Part shown: positions 51,106-63,171 of the stretch, in pieces | How the letters are laid out: every line of letters starts with the position of its first letter | How positions within the stretch are numbered: position 1 is the stretch's first letter | Origin: Hyphomicrobiales bacterium | GTDB lineage: Bacteria > Pseudomonadota > Alphaproteobacteria > Rhizobiales > Methyloligellaceae | NCBI GenBank assembly: GCA_021775525.1 | Contig: JAJFHQ010000013.1 | Coordinates: 1 to 64,000 of the forward strand | Reading direction: 5' to 3' | Length of the DNA stretch: 64,000 bases | Made by a program: the position numbers and the translations under genes | The notes under the pieces: generated by a model | Database searches by the model: none | What the model was told of the DNA's origin: nothing | What the model saw: only the letters and a program-made list of their open reading frames with translations

Positions 51106-51423
51106 ATGACGGGAAAGACATTGACGCGGGCTGACTTGGCGGAGGCCGTCTTTCAAAAAGTCGGATTGCCTCGCAACGAGTCTGCTGATCTGGTTGAGCT
51201 GGTGCTGAAGGAAATAACCAACTCCTTGGAGCGTGGTTCGCCGGTAAAACTATCCTCATTCGGTTCATTTGGTATTCGCGAAAAAGGCGAAAGAATTGGC
51301 CGAAATCCGAAAACCGGGGAGGAGGTCCCAATTACGCCACGGCGTGTGCTCGTATTCAGGGCAAGCAACATCATGAAGGAGCGCGTCAACGAGACGCTCG
51401 CGAAGAAAAATGCGGCAGGCTAG
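51106..51423 (+). CDS. ihfA: Integration host factor alpha subunit
   Basis: The product has 105 residues. It is the alpha half of the IHF heterodimer that bends DNA. The [33 protein letters not shown] start, the [15 protein letters not shown] core and the [20 protein letters not shown] beta-arm with the intercalating Pro are standard. The beta subunit is encoded elsewhere. The merR gene follows 40 bases later. Confidence 0.95.
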
Positions 51424-51463: not shown

Positions 51464-51928
51464 TTGGACAAATCACCGGAGGCCTTTCGGACAATAAGTG
51501 AAGTTGCAAACGAACTAGATGTGCCAAAACACGTTCTGAGGTTTTGGGAAGGAAAGTTTTCGCAGCTGAGACCTCTCAAGCGCGGCGGCGGTCGGCGCTA
51601 TTACCGGCCAGAAGACGTGAATTTGCTGCGGGGCATCCGCCAGCTTCTCTATGGTGACGGTTATACTATCAAAGGTGTGCAACGCCTTCTGCGTGAAAAT
51701 GGCGTGCGTTATGTCATGTCGTGCTGGGAAGATACCGCTGACGGTTCTGCCCGTGCAGCAGTCAAGGATATTCCCGATGTCGCGGCCGATGCTGCTCGAA
51801 GCGTATCGGAAGCTTCTGGGGAAAGTTCCATGGATGAAGGCCTGACAAAGGGGCAAACAGAACAGCTGCGTTCACTTCTGGGCGAACTTGTTGAATGCAA
51901 AAAATTGCTGGAAGCATCACGAGGCTAA
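51464..51928 (+). CDS. MerR-family transcriptional regulator
   Basis: The product has 154 residues, with a TTG start. The winged HTH is at 9-80 ([45 protein letters not shown]), and it is followed by a short dimerisation helix and a C-terminal acidic linker. No metal-binding cysteines typical of MerR sensors are present. Genes of this type sit after ihfA in many alphaproteobacteria, without a known ligand. There is no regular ATG near, so TTG is preferred. Confidence 0.85.
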
Positions 51929-52126: not shown

Positions 52127-53377
52127 TCAGGAAGCCGGAGGGCCATATTTTTCTCTGGCCATGATCAGCCCCCAGAGCACACCCATTATCACGTAAAAAT
52201 GCCGCCAGTGATCGGTGTCCACGATCATGCCTTCCGCAGCCAGTCCGGCAAACGCGGCAAGCATAACAATGGTGATGCCCTGGGTTGGCGCCGGGCGCAG
52301 TGCGTGCCGGAACGCAGCCGCTAGGGTTGTGAGTATCATCCCTAGATAGAGAAAACCCCCAATCCAGCCGGAATTGAGGAACATGCTCAAATAGACGTTA
52401 TGTACGTCCTCTCCATGATAGGAGCGGCCAAATTCAAGCGCGCCAATACCGATCGGATTAGAAAGCATCATGTCGAGGGCTTTGAGCTGGCCGCCAAATC
52501 GCCCTTCCGGACCCGTATCGTATGCCATCGTCAGGCTGAATCGCTCAGTGAAAAGATTGCCTATAGACTCAATTTGCATGACGCTGGCCAGTCCAAGCAG
52601 CGCAAAGCATAATCCGAACAGAGCCATGAGGATGAGTTTTAGCCGCAAACGGTTTGTGTGTGCGGCTATAAACACAACATAGCTGTAGACCAGAAGTGCT
52701 ACAGCCGCATTGAACCACGCTCCACGTGAGAAACTGATCAACAATCCAAGGCAAAACAAACCAGCGAGCAGAGACCTGTAAAGCGCACGTGCCGTGGGTG
52801 CTGTGGCCATGCCATGCACATAGTAGACAAGTGCCGGTATGATGAACGGGCCAAAAACGTTCGGATCCTTGAAGGTGCCCCGTGCCCGCTCAAATTTTGT
52901 GAATAATGCATTTGCTCCCGGCACAGCATCAAAATAGCCCGCCGCACCGGTCACAACGGCAACCATCGATGCGAACATCAGCCCAGAGATAACGACCCGG
53001 GTGTGCCTTTCCGGTGCCTTGCGAACAAATGCAGCGATCAATACCGAGGAGAGTGACAGGTAGATTGTAATGAATGTGTGTTTGACCGAAACATCCATCA
53101 CTTCGGAGCGTACAGAAGCCACCAGTCCAGCAGCGCCAATAACAAGCCAGGTAATGAGCAGCAGGAATATTCCAGTGGATGGAGATGTCAGACCGACCAG
53201 CGGTACAGCGACAATCAAGGAAATCATCAAGGCGTCATAAGGTGCTGGTTCAGCGAAAACGACAGAGGAGGAGGCGAGCGTAAGCCACATCAGTGCCAGC
53301 ACGAGGCTTTGTACTGTTAGACCTGAGCCGGCCTGAGTATGACGGGTATAGGGTTGAGAGGGAGCACCTGCAATCAT
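52127..53377 (-). CDS. O-antigen ligase/polymerase-type (Wzy/WaaL) membrane protein
   Basis: The product has about 416 residues and 10-12 hydrophobic helices. The larger periplasmic loop holds RFGGQLKALDMMLSNPIGIGALEFGRSYHGEDVHNVYLSMFLNSGWIGG, typical of the Wzy_C/O-antigen ligase family. I prefer ATG at 53377, with AGGG eight bases before, to the TTG at 53392. It would polymerise repeat units or ligate the polymer. The upstream gene wcaJ-like ends 19 bases earlier, so they are cotranscribed. Confidence 0.82.
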   Translation of the reverse strand: MIAGAPSQPYTRHTQAGSGLTVQSLVLALMWLTLASSSVVFAEPAPYDALMISLIVAVPLVGLTSPSTGIFLLLITWLVIGAAGLVASVRSEVMDVSVKHTFITIYLSLSSVLIAAFVRKAPERHTRVVISGLMFASMVAVVTGAAGYFDAVPGANALFTKFERARGTFKDPNVFGPFIIPALVYYVHGMATAPTARALYRSLLAGLFCLGLLISFSRGAWFNAAVALLVYSYVVFIAAHTNRLRLKLILMALFGLCFALLGLASVMQIESIGNLFTERFSLTMAYDTGPEGRFGGQLKALDMMLSNPIGIGALEFGRSYHGEDVHNVYLSMFLNSGWIGGFLYLGMILTTLAAAFRHALRPAPTQGITIVMLAAFAGLAAEGMIVDTDHWRHFYVIMGVLWGLIMAREKYGPPAS

Positions 53378-53393
53378 GGATGCGGCCCTCAAA

Positions 53394-54938
53394 TCAGTAA
53401 GCGTTTTCTGACTTCAACAACGCGATTGGCGTCATGGCCAGAATGTAAATATCGAACAGCACCGACCAGTTCTCGATATAATAAAGATCGTGTTCGACAC
53501 GATGTTGCAATTTTTCATGGGTGTCCGTTTCGCCGCGCCATCCATTGATCTGCGCCCAGCCCGTTATGCCGGGTTTCACACGGTGGCGTGCAAAATACCC
53601 GTCAGCCACATCCGCATAGAGAGAGTTGGCGGCTTTTGCCTGCAATGCATGGGGCCGCGGGCCAACGAGTGACAATTCACCCTTGAGGACATTGAACAGC
53701 TGCGGGAGTTCATCCAGGCTTGTTTTGCGGATGAATCGGCCGACTTTTGTCACCCGGTCATCGTCCTTGGTCACAAGTTTGGCGGCATTGCTGTCAGACT
53801 TGTCGGTATACATGGAGCGAAACTTGTAAACGTTGATTAGCTCATTGTTGAAACCATGTCGTTTCTGTTTGAAAAAGACAGGACCTTTGCTGTCGAGTTT
53901 CACTGCAAGCGCTACCAACGCCATGATTGGTGTAAGTGCCAGCAGGGCCAGGCTCGCAACCGTTTTGTCGAACGCCCATTTCAACACATAGTCCCAATCG
54001 GCTATCGGTTTATCCTGGAGGTCCAGGAACGGAACATTGCCAATGTAGGAATAGGCGCGTGGACGGAATCTGAGCTCATTGGTATGCGCCGACAATCGGA
54101 TATCAACCGGTAACACCCAGAGTTTCTGGTAGAGCTCAAGCAGCCTGCTTTCAGCCGCCATGGGCAGAGTGACGATAAGCAAATCGAGACGTTTCTCACG
54201 TCCGAATTCAATCAGCTGGTCGATGTTGCCCAGTTTTGGATATCCGGCGATCCGTTTAGATACGCGATCCTTGTCGCGATCATCGAACACGCCATAAATC
54301 TGTATGTCAGTATCGCGTGACGCTTCCAGTGCATTGATCAGTTTATGCGCCGGACTACCACCTCCAACGATCACGGCCCGCCGGTTAAGGCGCCCGAGTT
54401 TGCCCCAGTTTCGAACCGCAATGCACAAAAGGACCCTGAAGGCGACAAGCATTCCAAGTCCGCTCAGGTACCAGGTGGCGGCCCAGACGCGTGAAAACTC
54501 CTGTCCAAGCTTGGTGAAAAAGGCGAGCGCCATCATGATACTGAAAATGAGTGTCCAGGCCATGCAAATGCGTGCAATTTGCCGACTTGAGCTGGTGAGA
54601 ATGGTGATGTCGTAAAGTTGAAATGCCTGGAAGCTCAGTACCGATCCTGCAGCTGTGCCCAGTATGGCAACCATGTATAGGGCGTGCCCGATATGAGCCT
54701 GCAAGTCTGGCGTTTGGTCGATGTAGCTGTAGAAGATACCATACCCCAGGGCAGAGATGAGGAGGAACTCTATTAGGCGGGCACTGCCTGTCACCACGCG
54801 GGGTGAAATCAGCTTGGCAGCATCGGAAAATTGGAAACTCCCGAGGCGCGGACGTGATGCCTCGCGTCGATCCGACGTTCCGCGATCACGATTACGTCGA
54901 TCTGTCTCTGAATGGTCTGAAGCAGGTATATCAGACAT
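53394..54938 (-). CDS. Polyisoprenyl-phosphate hexose-1-phosphate transferase (WcaJ type)
   Basis: The product has 514 residues. Four or five N-terminal helices (about 45-170), a Rossmann-like soluble central domain ([17 protein letters not shown]), one more helix ([31 protein letters not shown]) and the catalytic sugar-phosphate transferase region [22 protein letters not shown]...[25 protein letters not shown] follow. It initiates polysaccharide by putting Glc- or Gal-1-P onto undecaprenyl phosphate. The sugar is not decided by sequence. It leads the minus-strand ligase gene. Confidence 0.9.
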
Positions 54939-55145: not shown

Positions 55146-56309
55146 TTATGCTTGGGGGTGTTCATTCAAGCGGCTGGAGTAGAATTTTGTTATAGCCTGG
55201 GCCATACCATCTACACTGAAGCGTTTTGCAACGCTCTCCCGCAATGTATTTGCCCGCTCAACGAAGGCTTCAGGCTTGTCCATGTACGCCTGCATTTCTT
55301 GAACAAGCGCGTGCGTATCAGCTCCCGGTATAAGTGGCACATTGCAGCCCTCGACGATTTCAGGAATGCCGCCAACATGCGTTGCAATCAGTGGCATGCG
55401 GGCAGCGCCCGCTTCGAGGACGATATAGGGGAAAGACTCAGCTCTTGAGGGAACGATAAGACAGCGCCCCCGGGTAAAGGCGGTTTCTGCTGGAATTGGG
55501 CCAGGAAAAGTCACCGCATCCATGAGACTCAGCTTTTCGGCAAGAGTCTTGAATTCTTCTGCATCGGGACCGCCGCCAGCGATGTATGCTGTAACGGACT
55601 GCTTTTTGCGCAATTCCGCCAATGCATGGAGCAGAATATCAACACCCTTCAGGTGCCTGAGTTCACCGACAAAAACGAAGTCAGCCGCACTTTCGTCAAG
55701 CGCACGCTCATAGAAATCCGTTGGCTTCACACCGTTCGGGATAATACGGGCCTCGCAGGGGAACGCCCCAATCTTTGCCTGGTAGATATCCGCGCTATAA
55801 GCGCTTTCGAAGATCAACCCGTCCGTTTTACGGCCCAGATAGCGTTCCAGCTCCATGAAAATGCGTCCCTGCAATGTGGCAGGGCTATAGTGAAGTGATC
55901 CGCCATGCGGCGTGTAGAAGGCGCGTATATTCTGCCTGCTACGTTTCAGTTTATGCGCCGCAAGTCGAGCATAGGCTCCTCCTTTGGCGCCATGACCGTG
56001 CAGAATGTGTGCCTGCGTTTCACAAGCAAGACGACGCACTGCCCTATAGGCTGTCAGGTCGCTAAGCCCAACCTGTCGACTCATGGGCACCCGGACAACA
56101 CCCCGCTCACAGATATTCTCATCCAGATTGCGCAACGCAGCTTCTGCAGCATTGCCGGCAGGACCAGCGTCACAGATGACGCCAACGCGATGTCCCAATT
56201 CGGTTTGTGCAGCTGCCAGGTCACACACATGCCTGAACAGCCCGCCAATAGGTGCGCGCAGACAATGCAAAATTGTAAGTGGAGGCGAAATGGTAGGGGG
56301 AGCGCTCAC
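55146..56309 (-). CDS. GT4-family glycosyltransferase
   Basis: The product has 387 residues. It has the two-Rossmann GT-B layout: an N-terminal PIGGLFRHVCDLA loop and ILHGHGAKGGAYARLA, then a C-terminal donor domain with FVGELRHLKGVDILLHAL and the E-x7-E motif in PSRAESFPYIVLEAG. It would transfer a sugar from a nucleotide or lipid donor in polymer assembly. Starts at GTG. The OPX gene lies 35 bases upstream in the same direction. Confidence 0.87.
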   Translation of the reverse strand: MSAPPTISPPLTILHCLRAPIGGLFRHVCDLAAAQTELGHRVGVICDAGPAGNAAEAALRNLDENICERGVVRVPMSRQVGLSDLTAYRAVRRLACETQAHILHGHGAKGGAYARLAAHKLKRSRQNIRAFYTPHGGSLHYSPATLQGRIFMELERYLGRKTDGLIFESAYSADIYQAKIGAFPCEARIIPNGVKPTDFYERALDESAADFVFVGELRHLKGVDILLHALAELRKKQSVTAYIAGGGPDAEEFKTLAEKLSLMDAVTFPGPIPAETAFTRGRCLIVPSRAESFPYIVLEAGAARMPLIATHVGGIPEIVEGCNVPLIPGADTHALVQEMQAYMDKPEAFVERANTLRESVAKRFSVDGMAQAITKFYSSRLNEHPQA

Positions 56310-56344: not shown

Positions 56345-56998
56345 TTAGAAAAACCGTTCCTTCACTGTGATGGTATCTCCAGGCTGGACCTTCCAACTAG
56401 CGGGTACCTTACGGGTAACGGTGGAGCCGTTGACCTGCCTCGTCAATTGTACTGTGCGCTTTTTTGCCCGTGGCGTAAATCCGCCGGCAATAGCAACAGC
56501 CGTCTGAACTGTCATATCCGCAACGTAAGGAAACTGACCCCCATTTCGTACTTCACCAAGAATGAAGAAGGGGCGGTTGGTCTCAACTTCAACAGTGACC
56601 TTGGGATCTTTCACATATTTTCGCTTCAGGGATCGCCTGATGCGTTCCTCAAGCTGGAACGTGGATATGCCGCGCGCCTCAACTGCACCGATAAGGGGCA
56701 TGGAAATGAATCCGCCCGCATCAACAGGATATATGCGTGACAGGTTTCTCTGGCCAAACACAGTGACCCTCAAACGGTCGCCACTGTCCAGCGTGTAGGG
56801 AGATCCACCCCCACTGGTTTTATGCACATATGCACCAGCGCCAGTCCGCAATGCAGGTGGCTGGATGGGCGTCGCTGATACGTACCCGCTTTGCTGGTGC
56901 TTGACCATGCGCTTTGCATGGTGGCCAGATGAGTTCGTCTTGCAGCCCGTAAGTGCAAGGCAAATGGCAGCGATAACAAGAACGGGCCGTATGGCCAT
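56345..56998 (-). CDS. Polysaccharide export lipoprotein (OPX/Wza family)
   Basis: The product has about 217 residues. The signal is MAIRPVLVIAAICLALTGC with lipobox LTGC. The poly_export region is SGDRLRVTVFGQRNLSRIYPVDAGGFISMPLIGAVEARG, then SLBB-like RPFFILGEVRNGGQFPYVADM. It is short compared with Wza (about 380), so it has the periplasmic rings only and lacks a clear outer-membrane helix. It would conduct or guide the polymer. It forms a minus-strand unit with the GT4 gene. Confidence 0.88.
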   Translation of the reverse strand: MAIRPVLVIAAICLALTGCKTNSSGHHAKRMVKHQQSGYVSATPIQPPALRTGAGAYVHKTSGGGSPYTLDSGDRLRVTVFGQRNLSRIYPVDAGGFISMPLIGAVEARGISTFQLEERIRRSLKRKYVKDPKVTVEVETNRPFFILGEVRNGGQFPYVADMTVQTAVAIAGGFTPRAKKRTVQLTRQVNGSTVTRKVPASWKVQPGDTITVKERFF

Positions 56999-57175
56999 GT
57001 GCGTTTCCATTTTGGTCGGCTAGACGAATCTCTACTGGACCTTTTTGTAGGCCAGTGATGGTTAACAAAGGTTAAGCGCACGTGCCGTCATGGCGCACTC
57101 TTTAAGCCTTTGGTTACCGGGAATCGGTAGAAAGGACGGGTGAGTAGAGTTGCTATCAAACGCACGAGTATTGCC

Positions 57176-59290
57176 ATGCACCCCAGTACCCAGCTTGCCG
57201 TCTCTGACGATATTGATGTTGCAGCCTTGCTGCGCGCAGTTAATCGGCGCAAATACCTGATTGCCGTACTTGCAGTAGCCGCGGGCATCGCAACGTATTT
57301 TGCCCTGAGCTTCGTGACCCCACAATATTCGTCAGAGGCACGCATTCTTATTGAGCGCGAGGAAAACAGTTACAAACGCCCTGCGGGCTCGCAGATACTC
57401 AATTCGCGGCGGACGATGACGGATCAAGAGGCTGTATCCAGCCAGGTTCAAGTTCTGCTGTCGCGCGACCTTGCCATGGGCGTTGCGAAAGAGCTTAGGC
57501 TGGATGAGGATCCGGAATTCAATACTGAGGCTGGCAGCGGAAAACTATGGCGAAAATTTCTGCGTATCATTCGTCTCAAGCAGCAGCCCACTCAGGTGGC
57601 GCTTCAGGAGAGGGTGCTTGATGCATTTCTTGATAGACTCAGCGTTTATCAATTGAAGAAATCACACGTAATTGCTGTGTCCTTCCAGTCCAGCAATCCG
57701 GAAACATCTGCAAAAGCTGCAAACAAGCTCGCCGAATTTTACCTGACTTGGCAGCAAGGCGAAAAACTCAAGCAGACAAAGGAAGCCAGTGCGTGGCTCA
57801 GCGGCCAGATCAAGGAACTCACAAAAAAGGTTGAAAAAGCCGATATTGCTGCTGAGCGTTTCCGCTCTTCCTCTGGGTTATTCGAAGGAAGCAACAACAC
57901 CACACTTGATGCTCAGCAACTCTCCGAACTGAATAGTCAGCTGATTCTGGCCAAGGCTCAGCGTACCGAAGCTGAAGCGCGTGCAGAACTCATTGAAAAA
58001 ATGCTCAAAGACACGGGTGGGGTAGCTGACTCCGCAGATGTTCTGAAATCAAGGTTGATCCAGCGGTTGCTCGAACAACGTGTAACAGTCCAGCGTGAGC
58101 TGGCCGAAGTTTCCGCAACGCTGCTTCCCTCGCACCCTCGCATAAAACAGCTCAACTCGGAGCTTAGCGATGTGCGCCGGCAGATACGCAAAGAGGCGCG
58201 CAAGGTCGTGTCCGGTTTGCGGAATGAAGCTCAGATTGCGGGAGCCCGCGAAATGTCGCTTCGTGAAAGTCTCGGCGAAATGAAGTTATCAGCCTCCAGG
58301 GGCAATGAAAGTCATATCAAACTGCGCGCCCTGGAAAGGGAAGCCAAAGCCAACCGCGACGTTCTGGAATCATATTTATCACGATACCGCGATGCCAGCA
58401 CGCGTTCAGACCAGGCTTCCGTACCGGCCCATGCCAGCATCGTCTCCAGGGCCCATGTCACCAGCACTCCATCTTTTCCGCAAAAGGGGCCGATTTCACT
58501 TCTGTCCATGGCTGCTATTGTGCTTCTGGGTTTCGCGCATACGGTAGCGCGGGAGATCATCACGCCTCAGCATGACCAGCGACTGCGCAGACGCCATGAC
58601 GATAATGCCCACACACAGGAAAGAAGATCCCGGTCCGCATCAATTAACCAGGGGTCAGGTATTTCAACGTTGAATTCACCTCGTGATATTGCACGCCAGT
58701 TTGCATCCATGCATGCCCGTTTATTCATCACCGCACCCCAGTCAGGCTGGGCTGATGCTGCAGGGCATGCAATCGATGTGGCCCGGGAATTGGCAGACGC
58801 TGGAAACAGCACGGTACTGGTCGATGCCATGGCTGAAGGAGATCATGTAGCCATAGCACTCGATCTGCCTGATGGGTCCGGTCTTCACCAAATGCTCAGC
58901 GGTCAGGCCAGCTTTGAAGAGGCAGTGCGCCGTGATCCCGATAGCAGCTTGCATGTCCTTTCTGGTACAAGTGACCCGGGCAGGGTGTATGGGCTTGATA
59001 CTAATCGTCTTGGCCCATTGCTTAATGCCCTGGAGGCGGCATACGACAATGTTGTCATTTATTCCGCACCGGAAGAGGCGGGCACAATGATCAGCATCCG
59101 CTCCCGGACTGAACCCGCTCTGGTACTGATCGCCGAGCCATCCGGTTCAAAAGACGAGTCTGCATGGCTGGCAGATCAAATCACGGCAAAGACGGTAGGC
59201 TCGCCAAGCGTGGCCATTCTTGCAAGCGGAGCTAATCGCTCATGGACCATGCCGCAAATGCCGTTCCTGAAGCGGGCAGAAGCAGTCTAG
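57176..59290 (+). CDS. Wzz/GumC-type chain-length protein with degenerate kinase-like domain
   Basis: The product has about 704 residues. The first membrane helix is at 27-47 (YLIAVLAVAAGIATYFALSF) and the second at about 438-458 (SLLSMAAIVLLGFAHTVA); between are the Wzz core and long coiled coils. Residues 512-704 have the shape of a BY-kinase/ParA domain, but Walker A is lost (FITAPQSGWADAAG lacks GKST), and the Walker B Asp is replaced (NVVIYSAPEE). No tyrosine-rich tail exists. So it is a PCP with a likely inactive kinase-like tail. Start at ATG 57176. It is divergent from the OPX gene. Confidence 0.85.
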   Translation: MHPSTQLAVSDDIDVAALLRAVNRRKYLIAVLAVAAGIATYFALSFVTPQYSSEARILIEREENSYKRPAGSQILNSRRTMTDQEAVSSQVQVLLSRDLAMGVAKELRLDEDPEFNTEAGSGKLWRKFLRIIRLKQQPTQVALQERVLDAFLDRLSVYQLKKSHVIAVSFQSSNPETSAKAANKLAEFYLTWQQGEKLKQTKEASAWLSGQIKELTKKVEKADIAAERFRSSSGLFEGSNNTTLDAQQLSELNSQLILAKAQRTEAEARAELIEKMLKDTGGVADSADVLKSRLIQRLLEQRVTVQRELAEVSATLLPSHPRIKQLNSELSDVRRQIRKEARKVVSGLRNEAQIAGAREMSLRESLGEMKLSASRGNESHIKLRALEREAKANRDVLESYLSRYRDASTRSDQASVPAHASIVSRAHVTSTPSFPQKGPISLLSMAAIVLLGFAHTVAREIITPQHDQRLRRRHDDNAHTQERRSRSASINQGSGISTLNSPRDIARQFASMHARLFITAPQSGWADAAGHAIDVARELADAGNSTVLVDAMAEGDHVAIALDLPDGSGLHQMLSGQASFEEAVRRDPDSSLHVLSGTSDPGRVYGLDTNRLGPLLNALEAAYDNVVIYSAPEEAGTMISIRSRTEPALVLIAEPSGSKDESAWLADQITAKTVGSPSVAILASGANRSWTMPQMPFLKRAEAV

Positions 59291-60561
59291 TGAACGCGAT
59301 CGGCAGCTTGTGTTTGTGGCAAGATGGATTTGCGGCGCTGTCCAAAGAGTTTGCGCCGGACACTTTGGGCCAGATGCCATAATCTAGGGCGCGTCTTGAC
59401 GAACCTCTTTACAGCTTCCTGAGCTGCAAGCGGCACTGTTAACAGATAACCTCGCTCGTCAAATGCGATAATATTCTCAAACAGGTGTGTATCGACATCA
59501 CACCATTCTTCCTTGTGGCGGGCATCGCCAGCACCCATGTCGAAAAAGTTCAATCCCCTCCGGCAGGCATCCTCGATTTGATATTGAAACAGCAAGGAGC
59601 CGGGAGAAAACTTTCTGATCGGCCCCTGGTCTATCGAGGTCAGCATAGTCGTGAACTTGTCCTTGAAAAAGGTACCGCTCGATATCGCTGCAACTTGATC
59701 CCCTGATCTGAGATATCCAAATTCCAAGGTTCCCTGTTCTCCTGAGGGCAGGGCAGCGAGTTCGTGATAAAATTCGCGGTGACGTGAATTCGCAAATGCA
59801 TCGCTGATACCTTGCTCGGAGAATTGTTGCGATTTTTGTTTGAAAAACTCGTCGAGCAATTTACGCCGCTCATCCGTTGTCGATGCCCAGCCCATTTCAA
59901 TCGGCGCCTGCTCTTTCAGTCGCCTCTCTTTTCGACCCAGCGTATTGCGTGATTTACCGCTGAACCTGTTGCGGTACAGCGTATCGAAGTCAGTTTCCAG
60001 AAGCACGGCATGCCCCTGATTGGCACTCGGCCGCAGCGGCAAATGGGCCATGGGGTTTGCCACACCATCCCACTCATAAGGCTGCTTGTCGAAATAGGCC
60101 GCATTCACACCACCGATCAGGCACGCCACTTCGCTAAGCAATGCCCTTACGTCTTGAGGTGATGTTTCGCGTGCAAAATTGAGCGTATGGAGGCCCATAT
60201 TGTAGTTGGCGTGCTCCCAGCCTATCCAGTGCAGGCAGCGTACCCCGCGTCGTTTTGAGACCTCGAAAGGCCAGATGAACTCAATTTTCCCCGATTGGGA
60301 ACGCCCGCAAACGATGGCAAGTTCTGCGCCTGACGGTTTTGAAACGAGGCGATACCAGGCTTCTGCATGTTCATAGGACTGCGCTTGAACGCCCACGGCG
60401 CTTGTTTGAAATGCCTGCCAATCCTTTTGGATCGGTTCAAAATCACGAAAAATTGACAGACGCACCAGGCCCGCTGACGTTTCCAGCGATCCGGCACATG
60501 GCGCTACATCCCGTGTTCGGTCCGGTTTGTGACCCACACGCGGCAAACTGATGACTGTCAT
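59287..60561 (-). CDS. CelD/BcsL-like GNAT acetyltransferase
   Basis: The product has about 424 residues. It belongs to the group with two GNAT-like (FemAB-like) halves: the pattern EHAEAWYRLVSKPSGAELAIVCGRSQ at the start and SGTFFKDKFTTMLTSIDQGPIRKFSPGSLLFQYQIEDACRRGLNFFDMGAGDARHKEEW at the C-terminal half, which resembles CelD/BcsL proteins. It probably acylates a sugar of the polymer. ATG at 60561 has AGGAG before it. Its stop overlaps the stop of the convergent chain-length gene. Confidence 0.75.
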   Translation of the reverse strand: MTVISLPRVGHKPDRTRDVAPCAGSLETSAGLVRLSIFRDFEPIQKDWQAFQTSAVGVQAQSYEHAEAWYRLVSKPSGAELAIVCGRSQSGKIEFIWPFEVSKRRGVRCLHWIGWEHANYNMGLHTLNFARETSPQDVRALLSEVACLIGGVNAAYFDKQPYEWDGVANPMAHLPLRPSANQGHAVLLETDFDTLYRNRFSGKSRNTLGRKERRLKEQAPIEMGWASTTDERRKLLDEFFKQKSQQFSEQGISDAFANSRHREFYHELAALPSGEQGTLEFGYLRSGDQVAAISSGTFFKDKFTTMLTSIDQGPIRKFSPGSLLFQYQIEDACRRGLNFFDMGAGDARHKEEWCDVDTHLFENIIAFDERGYLLTVPLAAQEAVKRFVKTRPRLWHLAQSVRRKLFGQRRKSILPQTQAADRVH

Positions 60562-60721
60562 GCCCACTCCTACGCAATACGAACGACAGGCTTCCTGCCA
60601 AAAAAAAGGAACTGATCAAGGCTTTCTCAAGGAAAGCCTGAAATAGTTGGCAGGAACGCAATAAAGCTAGTGGCAACTCGTTAACTTGCGGTTGCTCTTT
60701 GCGAAGAGGCGAGTGGATTTT

Positions 60722-61777
60722 ATGACAGGGTTACCGGTCGATATTCTGAAACCGGGCATGAAGGTGCTCTACTATTCTGGCCTCCACCGGCTGCTTGCTC
60801 CATTCGCCGAGGGCATTGGCCTGATCTTCATGCTGCACCAGGTTTCGCCCCGCAAACATGGCGGCTTTTCCCCCAATCGCGGTCTGATGGTGACACCTGA
60901 TTATCTCGATGCGGTTCTGCATGACGTAAAAGCAGCCGGTTTGGATATTATTTCCCTTGATGAGGCCCATGCACGCATCACCAGTGGAGATACGTCAAAA
61001 CGCTTTGCCTGCTTCACGCTTGATGATGGCTATCGTGATAACCTTGAATATTCATACCCAGTATTCCTGAAACACGACGCCCCCTTCACAATTTACGTGC
61101 CTTCGGAATTTCCGGGCGGGAAGGGAGAGCTGTGGTGGTTTGTGCTGGAGGAAGCGATTGCCTCAAGTTCCGAAATTACCCTGCCCACAGAGACCGGGCC
61201 AGTCCGGCTGCCTGCCGAAACGGATGAAGAGAAAACATCAGCGTTCGAGCGCGTCTATCATCACTTGCGTGACCAGAATGTAGATGACCAGCGCGAAGCC
61301 ATATCCCGGTTCTCAGATGTACATGGTTTGGACATGGAGGCGCAGTGTCGGGATCTGATTATGACCTGGGATGAAATCCGAAAGCTGGCTTCTGATCCGC
61401 TCGTGACAATTGGCGCTCATACGGTCACACACCCGGCACTTGCGAAACTGCCAGAAGCGCGTGCTGTCGAGGAAATGAAGTGCGGCGCGGACAGGATCAA
61501 AAAAGAACTTGGATTCTGGCCAGGACATTTCAGTTACCCCTACGGGAACCCTGACAGTGCTGGCCCGCGCGAATTCCGCATTGCCTCTGAACTTGGTTTT
61601 AAAACTGCGGTGACAACGCGCAAGGGCGTTGTATTTCCTGAACATGCAGATCACCTGACAGCCCTGCCACGGGTCTCGCTCAACGGCGAATATCAGTCCT
61701 CCGTCTTTACCCGGCTCTATATGACCGGCGCTCCCTTTGCGCTTTGGAACCGGTTCCGCCGCGTCGATGCTGCCTGA
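60722..61777 (+). CDS. Polysaccharide deacetylase (NodB type)
   Basis: The product has about 351 residues. The catalytic domain carries the first motif RFACFTLDDGYRDN (DD pair) and the zinc His in IGAHTVTHPALAKL, then HFSYPYGNPDS. It would remove N- or O-acetyl groups from the polymer. No clear signal, so it may act in the cytoplasm or need another route. I use the ATG at 60722; a TTG at 60686 opens the frame earlier. It is transcribed apart from the acetyltransferase gene, divergently. Confidence 0.85.
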   Translation: MTGLPVDILKPGMKVLYYSGLHRLLAPFAEGIGLIFMLHQVSPRKHGGFSPNRGLMVTPDYLDAVLHDVKAAGLDIISLDEAHARITSGDTSKRFACFTLDDGYRDNLEYSYPVFLKHDAPFTIYVPSEFPGGKGELWWFVLEEAIASSSEITLPTETGPVRLPAETDEEKTSAFERVYHHLRDQNVDDQREAISRFSDVHGLDMEAQCRDLIMTWDEIRKLASDPLVTIGAHTVTHPALAKLPEARAVEEMKCGADRIKKELGFWPGHFSYPYGNPDSAGPREFRIASELGFKTAVTTRKGVVFPEHADHLTALPRVSLNGEYQSSVFTRLYMTGAPFALWNRFRRVDAA

Positions 61778-62002: not shown

Positions 62003-62109
62003 GCTGTAATACCTATCAGGACTGCGATATGCGGCAACATGCATAATTGTCCCGGGACCGGAGACAAGGCAATTGCTCACAACCCGTTTCACCACATGAA
62101 GGAATGGCG

Positions 62110-63171
62110 ATGATGACCGGCTCAAAAAACAACGCAGGTAAAGATGACGCCGCAGTGCGTTCCTGGTTGTTTTTTCTGTGCGCGCTCATCTTCGCCATGA
62201 TCATCGTCGGAGGCGCCACGCGGCTTACGGATTCAGGCCTCTCGATCACCGAGTGGAAGCCGATACTGGGCATCATACCTCCGCTGGGTGAGGGGATGTG
62301 GCAGGAGGCATTCACGAAATACCGCCAAATTCCTGAATATGAACTCGTCAACAAGGGCATGAGCCTGGCTGATTTCAAAACCATCTACTGGTGGGAGTGG
62401 GGGCACCGGTTCCTGGGCCGGATGATCGGTTTTGCCTTTTTACTTCCCTTCCTGTTTTTCTGGTTCACGGGGAAAATCAGCAAGCAACTCTGGCCCAAAC
62501 TGATCGTGATGTTCGTGCTTGGCGGCCTGCAAGGCGCGCTTGGCTGGTACATGGTCATGAGCGGCCTAGTTGAACGAGTAGATGTTAGCCAGTACCGGCT
62601 TGCGGCGCATTTGTGCGCTGCCGTTCTCATCTTTGCTTATATCTTCTGGGTCGCGCTCCGGCTGAGACGGGGAGTTGCCCCGGCAACAGAAAAATCAACG
62701 GGTTTAAAAGCTTCAGCAATGTATCTGGTTATCGTTTTGTTTCTCCAGATAGCTCTTGGAGCCTTCGTCGCGGGACTGGATGCGGGGCAGGGCTACAACA
62801 CATGGCCGCTTATGGATGGCGCACTAATCCCGCAAGGTCTTGGCGCCATGTCGCCCTGGTATCTCAACCTGTTTGAAAATGCACTCACGGTTCAGTTTGA
62901 TCACCGGATATTGGCCTATGTCATTCTGGTCTGGGCCATTGTCCACGCTGTACTTTCCTCAAAAACTGCAGGTAGGGGTCCGATCACGCTGGGAGCCTAT
63001 TTTCTCTTGGCAAGCATAGTGGCTCAGCTTGTGATAGGTATCGCCACGTTGCTGGCAAAAGTGCCGATTGCACTAGGTTTGGCTCATCAGGGGATGGCCA
63101 TTCTGGTGTTCTCAATCGGTTTATGGCACCTCAACCAACTTGTGCCAGGGCCTGCTCCAGGTCAGCGATAA
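62110..63171 (+). CDS. ctaA: Heme A synthase (COX15/CtaA)
   Basis: The product has about 353 residues and eight membrane helices. It oxidises heme O to heme A for cytochrome c oxidase. The conserved histidines appear in WEWGHRFLGRMIGF, RLAAHLCAAVLIF, FDHRILAYVI and GLAHQGMAILVF, and ATRLTDSGLSITEWKPI is the family N-terminus. AAGGA sits at 62099-62103, so ATG 62110 is my start (62104 or 62113 possible). Its 3' end overlaps the convergent metY-type gene by 41 bases. Confidence 0.93.
   Translation: MMTGSKNNAGKDDAAVRSWLFFLCALIFAMIIVGGATRLTDSGLSITEWKPILGIIPPLGEGMWQEAFTKYRQIPEYELVNKGMSLADFKTIYWWEWGHRFLGRMIGFAFLLPFLFFWFTGKISKQLWPKLIVMFVLGGLQGALGWYMVMSGLVERVDVSQYRLAAHLCAAVLIFAYIFWVALRLRRGVAPATEKSTGLKASAMYLVIVLFLQIALGAFVAGLDAGQGYNTWPLMDGALIPQGLGAMSPWYLNLFENALTVQFDHRILAYVILVWAIVHAVLSSKTAGRGPITLGAYFLLASIVAQLVIGIATLLAKVPIALGLAHQGMAILVFSIGLWHLNQLVPGPAPGQR

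Follow-up and report, generated by a model that had tools for sequence, protein, structure and literature searches.

The window, a 64,000-nucleotide stretch of a Hyphomicrobiales genome, contains a gene that we confirmed to encode a Wzc-type polysaccharide co-polymerase (PCP-2) with a C-terminal BY-kinase fold that lacks catalytic residues. We consider it probable that this is a non-catalytic PCP whose polymer is controlled by something other than a kinase, and the best reading of the dead domain is that it serves as a non-catalytic, optional scaffold or persists as a remnant. That level of confidence covers the non-catalytic PCP and the non-kinase control; the first three alternatives weighed below differ on the role of the dead domain and mostly share this core. 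On a wider scale, the Hyphomicrobiales exporter may have shed kinase control stepwise, with catalysis lost at the root of the PCP clade, the dead domain kept by most lineages compared, and the domain then deleted in one genus or more (two lineages in our tree) where the export genes were kept, a scenario to which we give about even chances.

The window gene and its locus

The window protein has a PCP-2a architecture, with a Wzz domain, two TM helices, a long periplasmic part and a fused C-terminal BY-kinase fold (Table 1). Its match to TIGR01005 is 269 bits, under the cut-off of 412. The ATG at 57176 appears a likelier start than 57140, because it encodes Met13 of the open reading frame spanning 57140-59290, a residue that is nearly invariant across 53 aligned sequences.

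Table 1. Coordinates of the PCP gene, its domains and motifs, and the neighbouring genes in the window
Feature	Coordinates	Strand	Details
IHF-alpha-like gene (ihfA), flank marker common to S. meliloti	51106..51423	+	named by reading translation
MerR-family gene, flank marker	51464..51928	+	
Wzy/O-antigen ligase-like protein	52127..53392	-	Pfam PF04932; synteny
Undecaprenyl-phosphate sugar phosphotransferase (WcaJ/HfsE-like, putative UppE)	53394..54938	-	TIGR03023 485 bits, above cut-off
GT4 glycosyltransferase	55146..56309	-	
Polysaccharide export (OPX/Wza-type) protein, putative UppC	56345..57010	-	Pfam PF02563 1.3e-23
PCP-2 with fused, predicted BY-pseudokinase	57140..59290	+	ORF 716 aa; likely start ATG 57176
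Wzz domain	57206..57496	+	residues 23-119; Pfam PF02706 1.2e-12
GNVR-like stretch to second TM helix	58328..58555	+	residues 397-472; Pfam PF13807 21.4 bits, sub-threshold (cut-off 27.7)
Predicted BY-pseudokinase domain	58673..59242	+	residues 512-701; AlphaFold2 model, VpsO kinase Z 21.3
Degenerate Walker A, no GK[ST]	58736..58765	+	residues 533-542
Walker A' remnant, first Asp D562 kept	58811..58840	+	residues 558-567
Walker B position, Asp to Tyr641	59042..59077	+	residues 635-646
GNAT (Acetyltransf_6) protein	59287..60567	-	
Polysaccharide deacetylase	60686..61777	+	
COX15/CtaA-like gene, flank marker	62047..63171	+	

The gene order in the window is fabH, ihfA, merR, wzy/pgt/gt4/wza (all on the minus strand), PCP (plus), gnat (minus), deacetylase and ctaA. 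The product of 53394-54938 reaches 358 bits against the HfsE model NF050817, below that model's cut-off of 750. In S. meliloti Ak57 (CP090106.1), ihfA, merR, wzy, pgt, gt4, wza, PCP, gnat and ctaA lie in the same order and on the same strands as in the window, with extra intervening genes that include another GT4; the stretch also codes for an O-acetyltransferase and lacks a deacetylase. The window PCP falls in one clade with the PCP of this syntenic locus, the core gene order matching, and by gene order and numbering the S. meliloti protein would be SMc01795. The record CP090106.1 (L079) is titled plasmid pSymB of S. meliloti Ak57; it is 3.7 Mb long and carries ribosomal protein and ihfA genes, so that it looks chromosomal.

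This arrangement recurs widely. We fetched 81 loci, that of S. meliloti and those of the best 80 of 518 relatives, in which tblastn found wza in 77, gt4 in 75, pgt in 73, gnat in 71, wzy in 67, ctaA in 66 and the deacetylase in 59, some of the contigs ending early. A unipolar-polysaccharide (UPP) adhesin locus that includes UppC, of the Wza type, and UppE, which is HfsE-like, is described as conserved in Rhizobiales (PMC12727192; PMC4018554). Gene content and the literature together suggest that the window locus is probably this UPP locus, conserved in Hyphomicrobiales.

The C-terminal domain is modelled as a BY-kinase fold

By sequence, the kinase-like C-terminus is weak: its TIGR01007 score is 31 bits against a cut-off of 108, and the BceF kinase (6z0p) matches the window protein at residues 505-673 with an E value of 2.7e-8. 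The sequence-only reading had held that the C-terminal 190 residues keep the ParA/BY-kinase shape, and had named a structure-based alignment with CapB/Wzc as the check. An AlphaFold2 model was built on 53 sequences (mean pLDDT 83.4, pTM 0.49). In VIA-align the model superposed on the VpsO kinase with a Z of 21.3 and an rmsd of 2.5 Å over 180 residues, and its domain (~502-701) aligned with CapAB at a Z of about 20 and with the Etk and Wzc kinase domains at about 19-20 (19.1 for the Wzc kinase domain 3la6), while MinD and ParA ranked below the BY-kinases at Z 17 and less. Foldseek placed Wzc chains at the top (E 3.2e-20); since its whole-chain TM-scores were low (about 0.2-0.3) and the rmsd large, we drew the fold from the domain superposition only. 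The model thus bears out the earlier reading of the shape, and the predicted domain is clearly a BY-kinase fold.

Catalytic residues are absent across the ortholog clade

The losses that had been read from the window sequence also hold. There is no GK[ST] at residues 533-542, Tyr641 occupies the position of the Walker B Asp, and Tyr641 is also the last Tyr of the protein, leaving no Tyr cluster or tail beyond it. Walker A' retains D562 and has lost its second Asp.

For motif counts among relatives, 150 sequences were reduced to an alignment of 128 proteins, comprising 108 domain-bearing orthologs and 20 paralogs, by setting aside 11 that were truncated, frame-broken or contig-cut and removing 11 duplicates. 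Several of the set-aside rows are partial copies of proteins retained under another locus, and one (L049, from genome G037) is a complete domain-less PCP, hence the 108 are only the domain-bearing orthologs. In quick tree searches with SH-aLRT support only and a paralog root set by choice, the periplasmic part divided 77 orthologs from 20 paralogs by a branch with a support of 95, and a second tree divided 67 orthologs from 13 paralogs with a support of 100. The Walker A Lys was found in one ortholog of 108 versus 19 of the 20 paralogs, the Walker B Asp in 13 versus all 20, the second Asp of Walker A' in nine versus 13, and three or more Tyr within the last 40 residues in one versus seven. The sole ortholog with a Walker A Lys (L046) has K-S at that column and lies near the base of the clade. 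Because orthologs and paralogs differ in Walker A Lys, Walker B Asp and Tyr counts, the alignment indicates that loss of the catalytic residues is clade-wide and not chance. That the domain is a BY-pseudokinase, and as such would not cycle by tyrosine phosphorylation, is well supported by these motif counts.

E-x-x-R-x-x-R is an oligomerisation motif. It occurs no more than 60 residues ahead of Walker A in 2/108 orthologs and 4/20 paralogs, one of these four lying off the expected helix by eye.

Some relatives lack the domain altogether

We searched 397 genomes of the order and obtained a match at 1e-55 in 281. Among the matches listed, family f33 (genus g38) had seven PCP frames of only 474-508 aa. 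In all seven loci (L195-L198, L201, L202 and L204) the PCP ends shortly past TM2; five of them hold wzy, pgt, gt4, wza, PCP and deacetylase, and in the other two the contig begins inside pgt. Only 94-307 bases separate the PCP stop from the deacetylase match in five loci (L196, L197, L198, L201 and L202), which is too short for a kinase-like domain. The loci read come from seven of the eight f33 genomes that matched, G061 being the other. When eight f33 genomes were searched with a profile of the domain, no stand-alone substitute was found: seven gave nothing better than 4.7e-6, with the best matches on ParA-like frames, and the eighth gave nothing at 0.01. As a control, the same profile matched the PCP in 10/10 genomes (1.6e-23 to 4.9e-54), of which G000, G008, G042 and G048 have rows in the profile and the other six span 1.6e-23 to 6.8e-49.

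Two further genomes have a domain-less PCP, of 517 aa with deacetylase and ctaA on a short contig in G037, and of 505 aa in a rearranged locus with no wza match in the stretch read in G123. These are weaker cases of domain loss than f33, because elsewhere in both genomes there is a further PCP that does have a kinase-like domain (3.9e-16 and 1.3e-12). On an 80-row tree, absence of the domain requires two changes. We claim two losses and not three, since G037 (L187) sits on a long branch; the second loss, in G123, depends on a single genome. Short frames from G075 (cut by a contig end), G076 (a possible split or frameshift), G298, G045 and G023 were left out. We found no published report of domain-less PCPs at this locus in one open-access library, using queries not phrased for exactly that.

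Two observations concern the same loci. The gnat gene, as a rule a neighbour of the PCP, was not found at L195-L198, L201, L204 or L187, all of which also lack the pseudokinase domain; it is present in G123. At L203 (G076:C249), the PCP frame has 556 aa, and a second frame of 323 aa comes after it at the place of the TIGR01007 match, which reads as either an assembly frameshift or a split HfsA/HfsB-like pair.

The domain-less loci bear directly on the idea that the dead domain is essential, required in the same way as EcpK and HfsB to build or stabilise the PCP through protein contacts. A model of this kind has been put forward for stand-alone BY pseudokinases (PMC12004946), and it agrees with purifying selection on the domain and with the constancy of certain residues, G581 and Y635 being present in all 77 members of a thinned ortholog set (77 of 108) and F592 in 96%. 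The PCPs without the domain at 7/7 f33/g38 loci read, together with those of G037 and G123, stand against it, however, as does the finding of only weak ParA-like matches or none in the eight f33 genomes. We regard an essential scaffold as a serious contender, though one we lean against.

The domain is under relaxed purifying selection

We compared dN/dS between the pseudokinase domain and the periplasmic part of the same proteins. Five ortholog pairs were taken, and two fell out of the ratio because one region was saturated in each (the pseudokinase domain in L080/L082, the periplasmic part in window/L080). In the remaining three, the pseudokinase domain gave 0.14, 0.22 and 0.19 versus 0.06, 0.09 and 0.07 for the periplasmic part, a 2.3 to 2.8 fold ratio; because dS in these pairs is about 0.7 to 1.5, all values are rough. 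The more distant pair window/L080 gave 0.32 for the pseudokinase domain. Two control pairs of paralogs with a Walker A gave 0.10 and 0.16 for the kinase domain versus 0.11 and 0.18 for the periplasm. Purifying selection thus acts on the pseudokinase domain in relaxed form, a relaxation that the paralog kinases do not show.

The faster evolution of the domain favours a functionless vestige in neutral decay, as do its absence from some lineages and the low-complexity linkers that precede it, by which the proteins of some Hyphomicrobiaceae relatives gain as many as about 490 residues. The pseudokinase values nevertheless remain at 0.14-0.22 (0.32 in the distant pair), and core residues are kept across the order, so we judge a pure vestige unlikely.

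Nine proteins from the same family as the window, including Methyloceanibacter (L023, L026, L074, L075, L076, L085, L086, L088 and L115), are 787-1207 aa, or ~70 to 490 residues longer, and where read the extra residues lie between TM2 and the pseudokinase domain, as a low-complexity linker rich in Pro, Ala and Lys. A linker of this kind is hard to reconcile with a rigid phosphorylating ring.

A retained pocket residue and the search for other kinases

The first Asp of Walker A', at the position of D562, is kept in 103/108 orthologs versus 20/20 paralogs, from which the domain may bind a nucleotide or another ligand. One could accordingly imagine a sensor whose pocket binds a nucleotide or second messenger (e.g. 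c-di-GMP) and gates the exporter without catalysis. The strongly conserved replacement loop at the P-loop, common to many Rhizobiaceae/Phyllobacteriaceae, would favour such a role, but beyond these families the loop is unconserved, and we hold a sensor to be distinctly improbable. The loop itself, at the Walker A position in most Rhizobiaceae/Phyllobacteriaceae among L079-L159, is strongly conserved and acidic, unlike the variable loop of Hyphomicrobiaceae, and is a candidate ligand or contact site.

The sequence-only reading had also called for a search for a separate active kinase in the genome. No Tyr-tailed BY-kinase was found elsewhere in the window genome, an assembly 85.9% complete (86% rounded) in which a missed kinase is possible, and TIGR01007 gave seven matches with none above its cut-off. 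Judged by eye, two of these are the window gene and the C22 paralog, and the others are proteins of the ParA, Mrp, Ffh, CpaE and short-chain dehydrogenase types. The C22 paralog is the only other PCP-2 found in this genome; its Walker A is intact and it has no Tyr tail. Three genes of the LMW phosphatase family are present, so that absence of a phosphatase cannot be used as an argument. We extended the search to 19 relatives, six congeners and 13 picked for having a single PCP match. In 11, of which eight have a completeness of 96% or more, the search at E 1e-8 found no further PCP with a Walker A and no BY-kinase; the remaining eight have such a match, Tyr-tailed in G034. It is very hard to credit that the window protein is a cryptic kinase working without its Walker A Lys, or that the C22 paralog, with its intact Walker A, phosphorylates it in trans, given that the paralog has no Tyr tail, that the window protein has no Tyr past residue 641 and that 11 of the 19 relatives gave no other match at E 1e-8.

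As a separate observation, the second PCP-2 of the genus/family (L002, which is G000:C22, and L065, L066, L070, L071 and L060) keeps Walker A and Walker B and has no Tyr tail, an intermediate state.

Proposed mechanism

How might such an exporter work? The periplasmic coiled-coil part and the two TM helices would form oligomers, act with the Wzy protein in setting chain length and connect to the OPX export protein. The dead domain would resemble a permanently unphosphorylated Wzc, such as K540M, and so favour the assembled PCP-OPX channel, acting as an optional aid to assembly or stability that some lineages dropped. Length would be set by periplasmic contact between PCP and Wzy, and timing by control of synthesis or supply (c-di-GMP, surface contact), with no kinase/phosphatase cycle. 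We infer the octamer state, the Wzy contact, the signal control and the adhesin product for this locus.

In E. coli, the Walker A mutant Wzc K540M is reported to form stable octamers, and a stable Wza-Wzc complex was purified (PMC12881504; PMC11986026); a natural pseudokinase should likewise stay unphosphorylated and assembled. The periplasmic domain of E. coli Wzc alone is described as unable to bind Wza, and oligomerisation of the kinase domain is held to drive assembly (PMC12881504). These assembly data fit a scaffold but sit badly with the domain-less lineages. The earlier proposal that the domain is only a scaffold under a different mode of control survives in part. Absence of kinase cycling, and with it another form of control, is well supported by the clade-wide residue loss, the failure to find a Tyr-tailed kinase elsewhere in the 86%-complete genome and the 11 of 19 searched relatives with no other match at E 1e-8. 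A scaffold role is plausible, but it is not needed everywhere, because one genus-level lineage and two further genomes do without the domain.

Current models are described as placing a cycle in which phosphorylation drives the PCP-2 octamer to assemble and disassemble at the centre of chain-length control (PMC11986026). If the stepwise scenario is true, a Wzy/PCP-2/OPX machine can run with neither kinase nor pseudokinase, and cycling of the cytoplasmic domain would be a removable add-on and not part of the core. The widespread, catalytically dead PCP clade and its natural domain-less variants offer ready comparisons for the role of the cytoplasmic domain, and rhizobia, in which polar adhesion to roots and surfaces is measurable, suit such comparisons.

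Comparison with known systems

The class to which the window protein belongs has already been described, and the pseudokinase idea is sound but not new, since SMc01795 and PssP2 are published. The EcpK paper names S. meliloti SMc01795 as a PCP-2 with a fused BY-pseudokinase, citing Cuthbertson et al. 2009 (PMC12004946). SMc01795-type variants are single polypeptides with a BY-kinase-like domain lacking catalytic motifs; the window protein likewise has a fused BY-kinase fold, no catalytic motifs and no Tyr tail, and we see no difference of kind. R. leguminosarum PssP2 is reported as a fused PCP whose BY-kinase fold lacks Walker A, A', B and the Tyr cluster, is said to be apparently unphosphorylated, and when mutated alters EPS chain length (PMC4182512). 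Both are fused dead-kinase PCPs; PssP2 differs in its length (586 aa), its short periplasmic domain and its place at another locus, the Pss-II region. Our additions are a pattern that extends across the order, a link to a single conserved locus that is probably UPP, the contrast in selection and the relatives without the domain.

M. xanthus EcpK/EpsV and C. crescentus HfsB/HfsA likewise pair a PCP-2 with a BY-pseudokinase and are phosphorylation-independent in their authors' model, HfsAB serving a polar adhesin (holdfast). A scaffold role is proposed there for stand-alone pseudokinases, EcpK and HfsB being held to support their PCPs without catalysis (PMC12004946). In these pairs the pseudokinase is a separate protein, whereas in the window it is fused within a single 716-aa open reading frame. 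E. coli Wzc, itself a PCP-2a, is like the window PCP in domain order and in the fold of the kinase domain, but Wzc, equipped with Walker A/B and a Tyr tail, undergoes phosphorylation cycling, while the window PCP has no Walker A GK[ST], no Walker B Asp and no Tyr tail.
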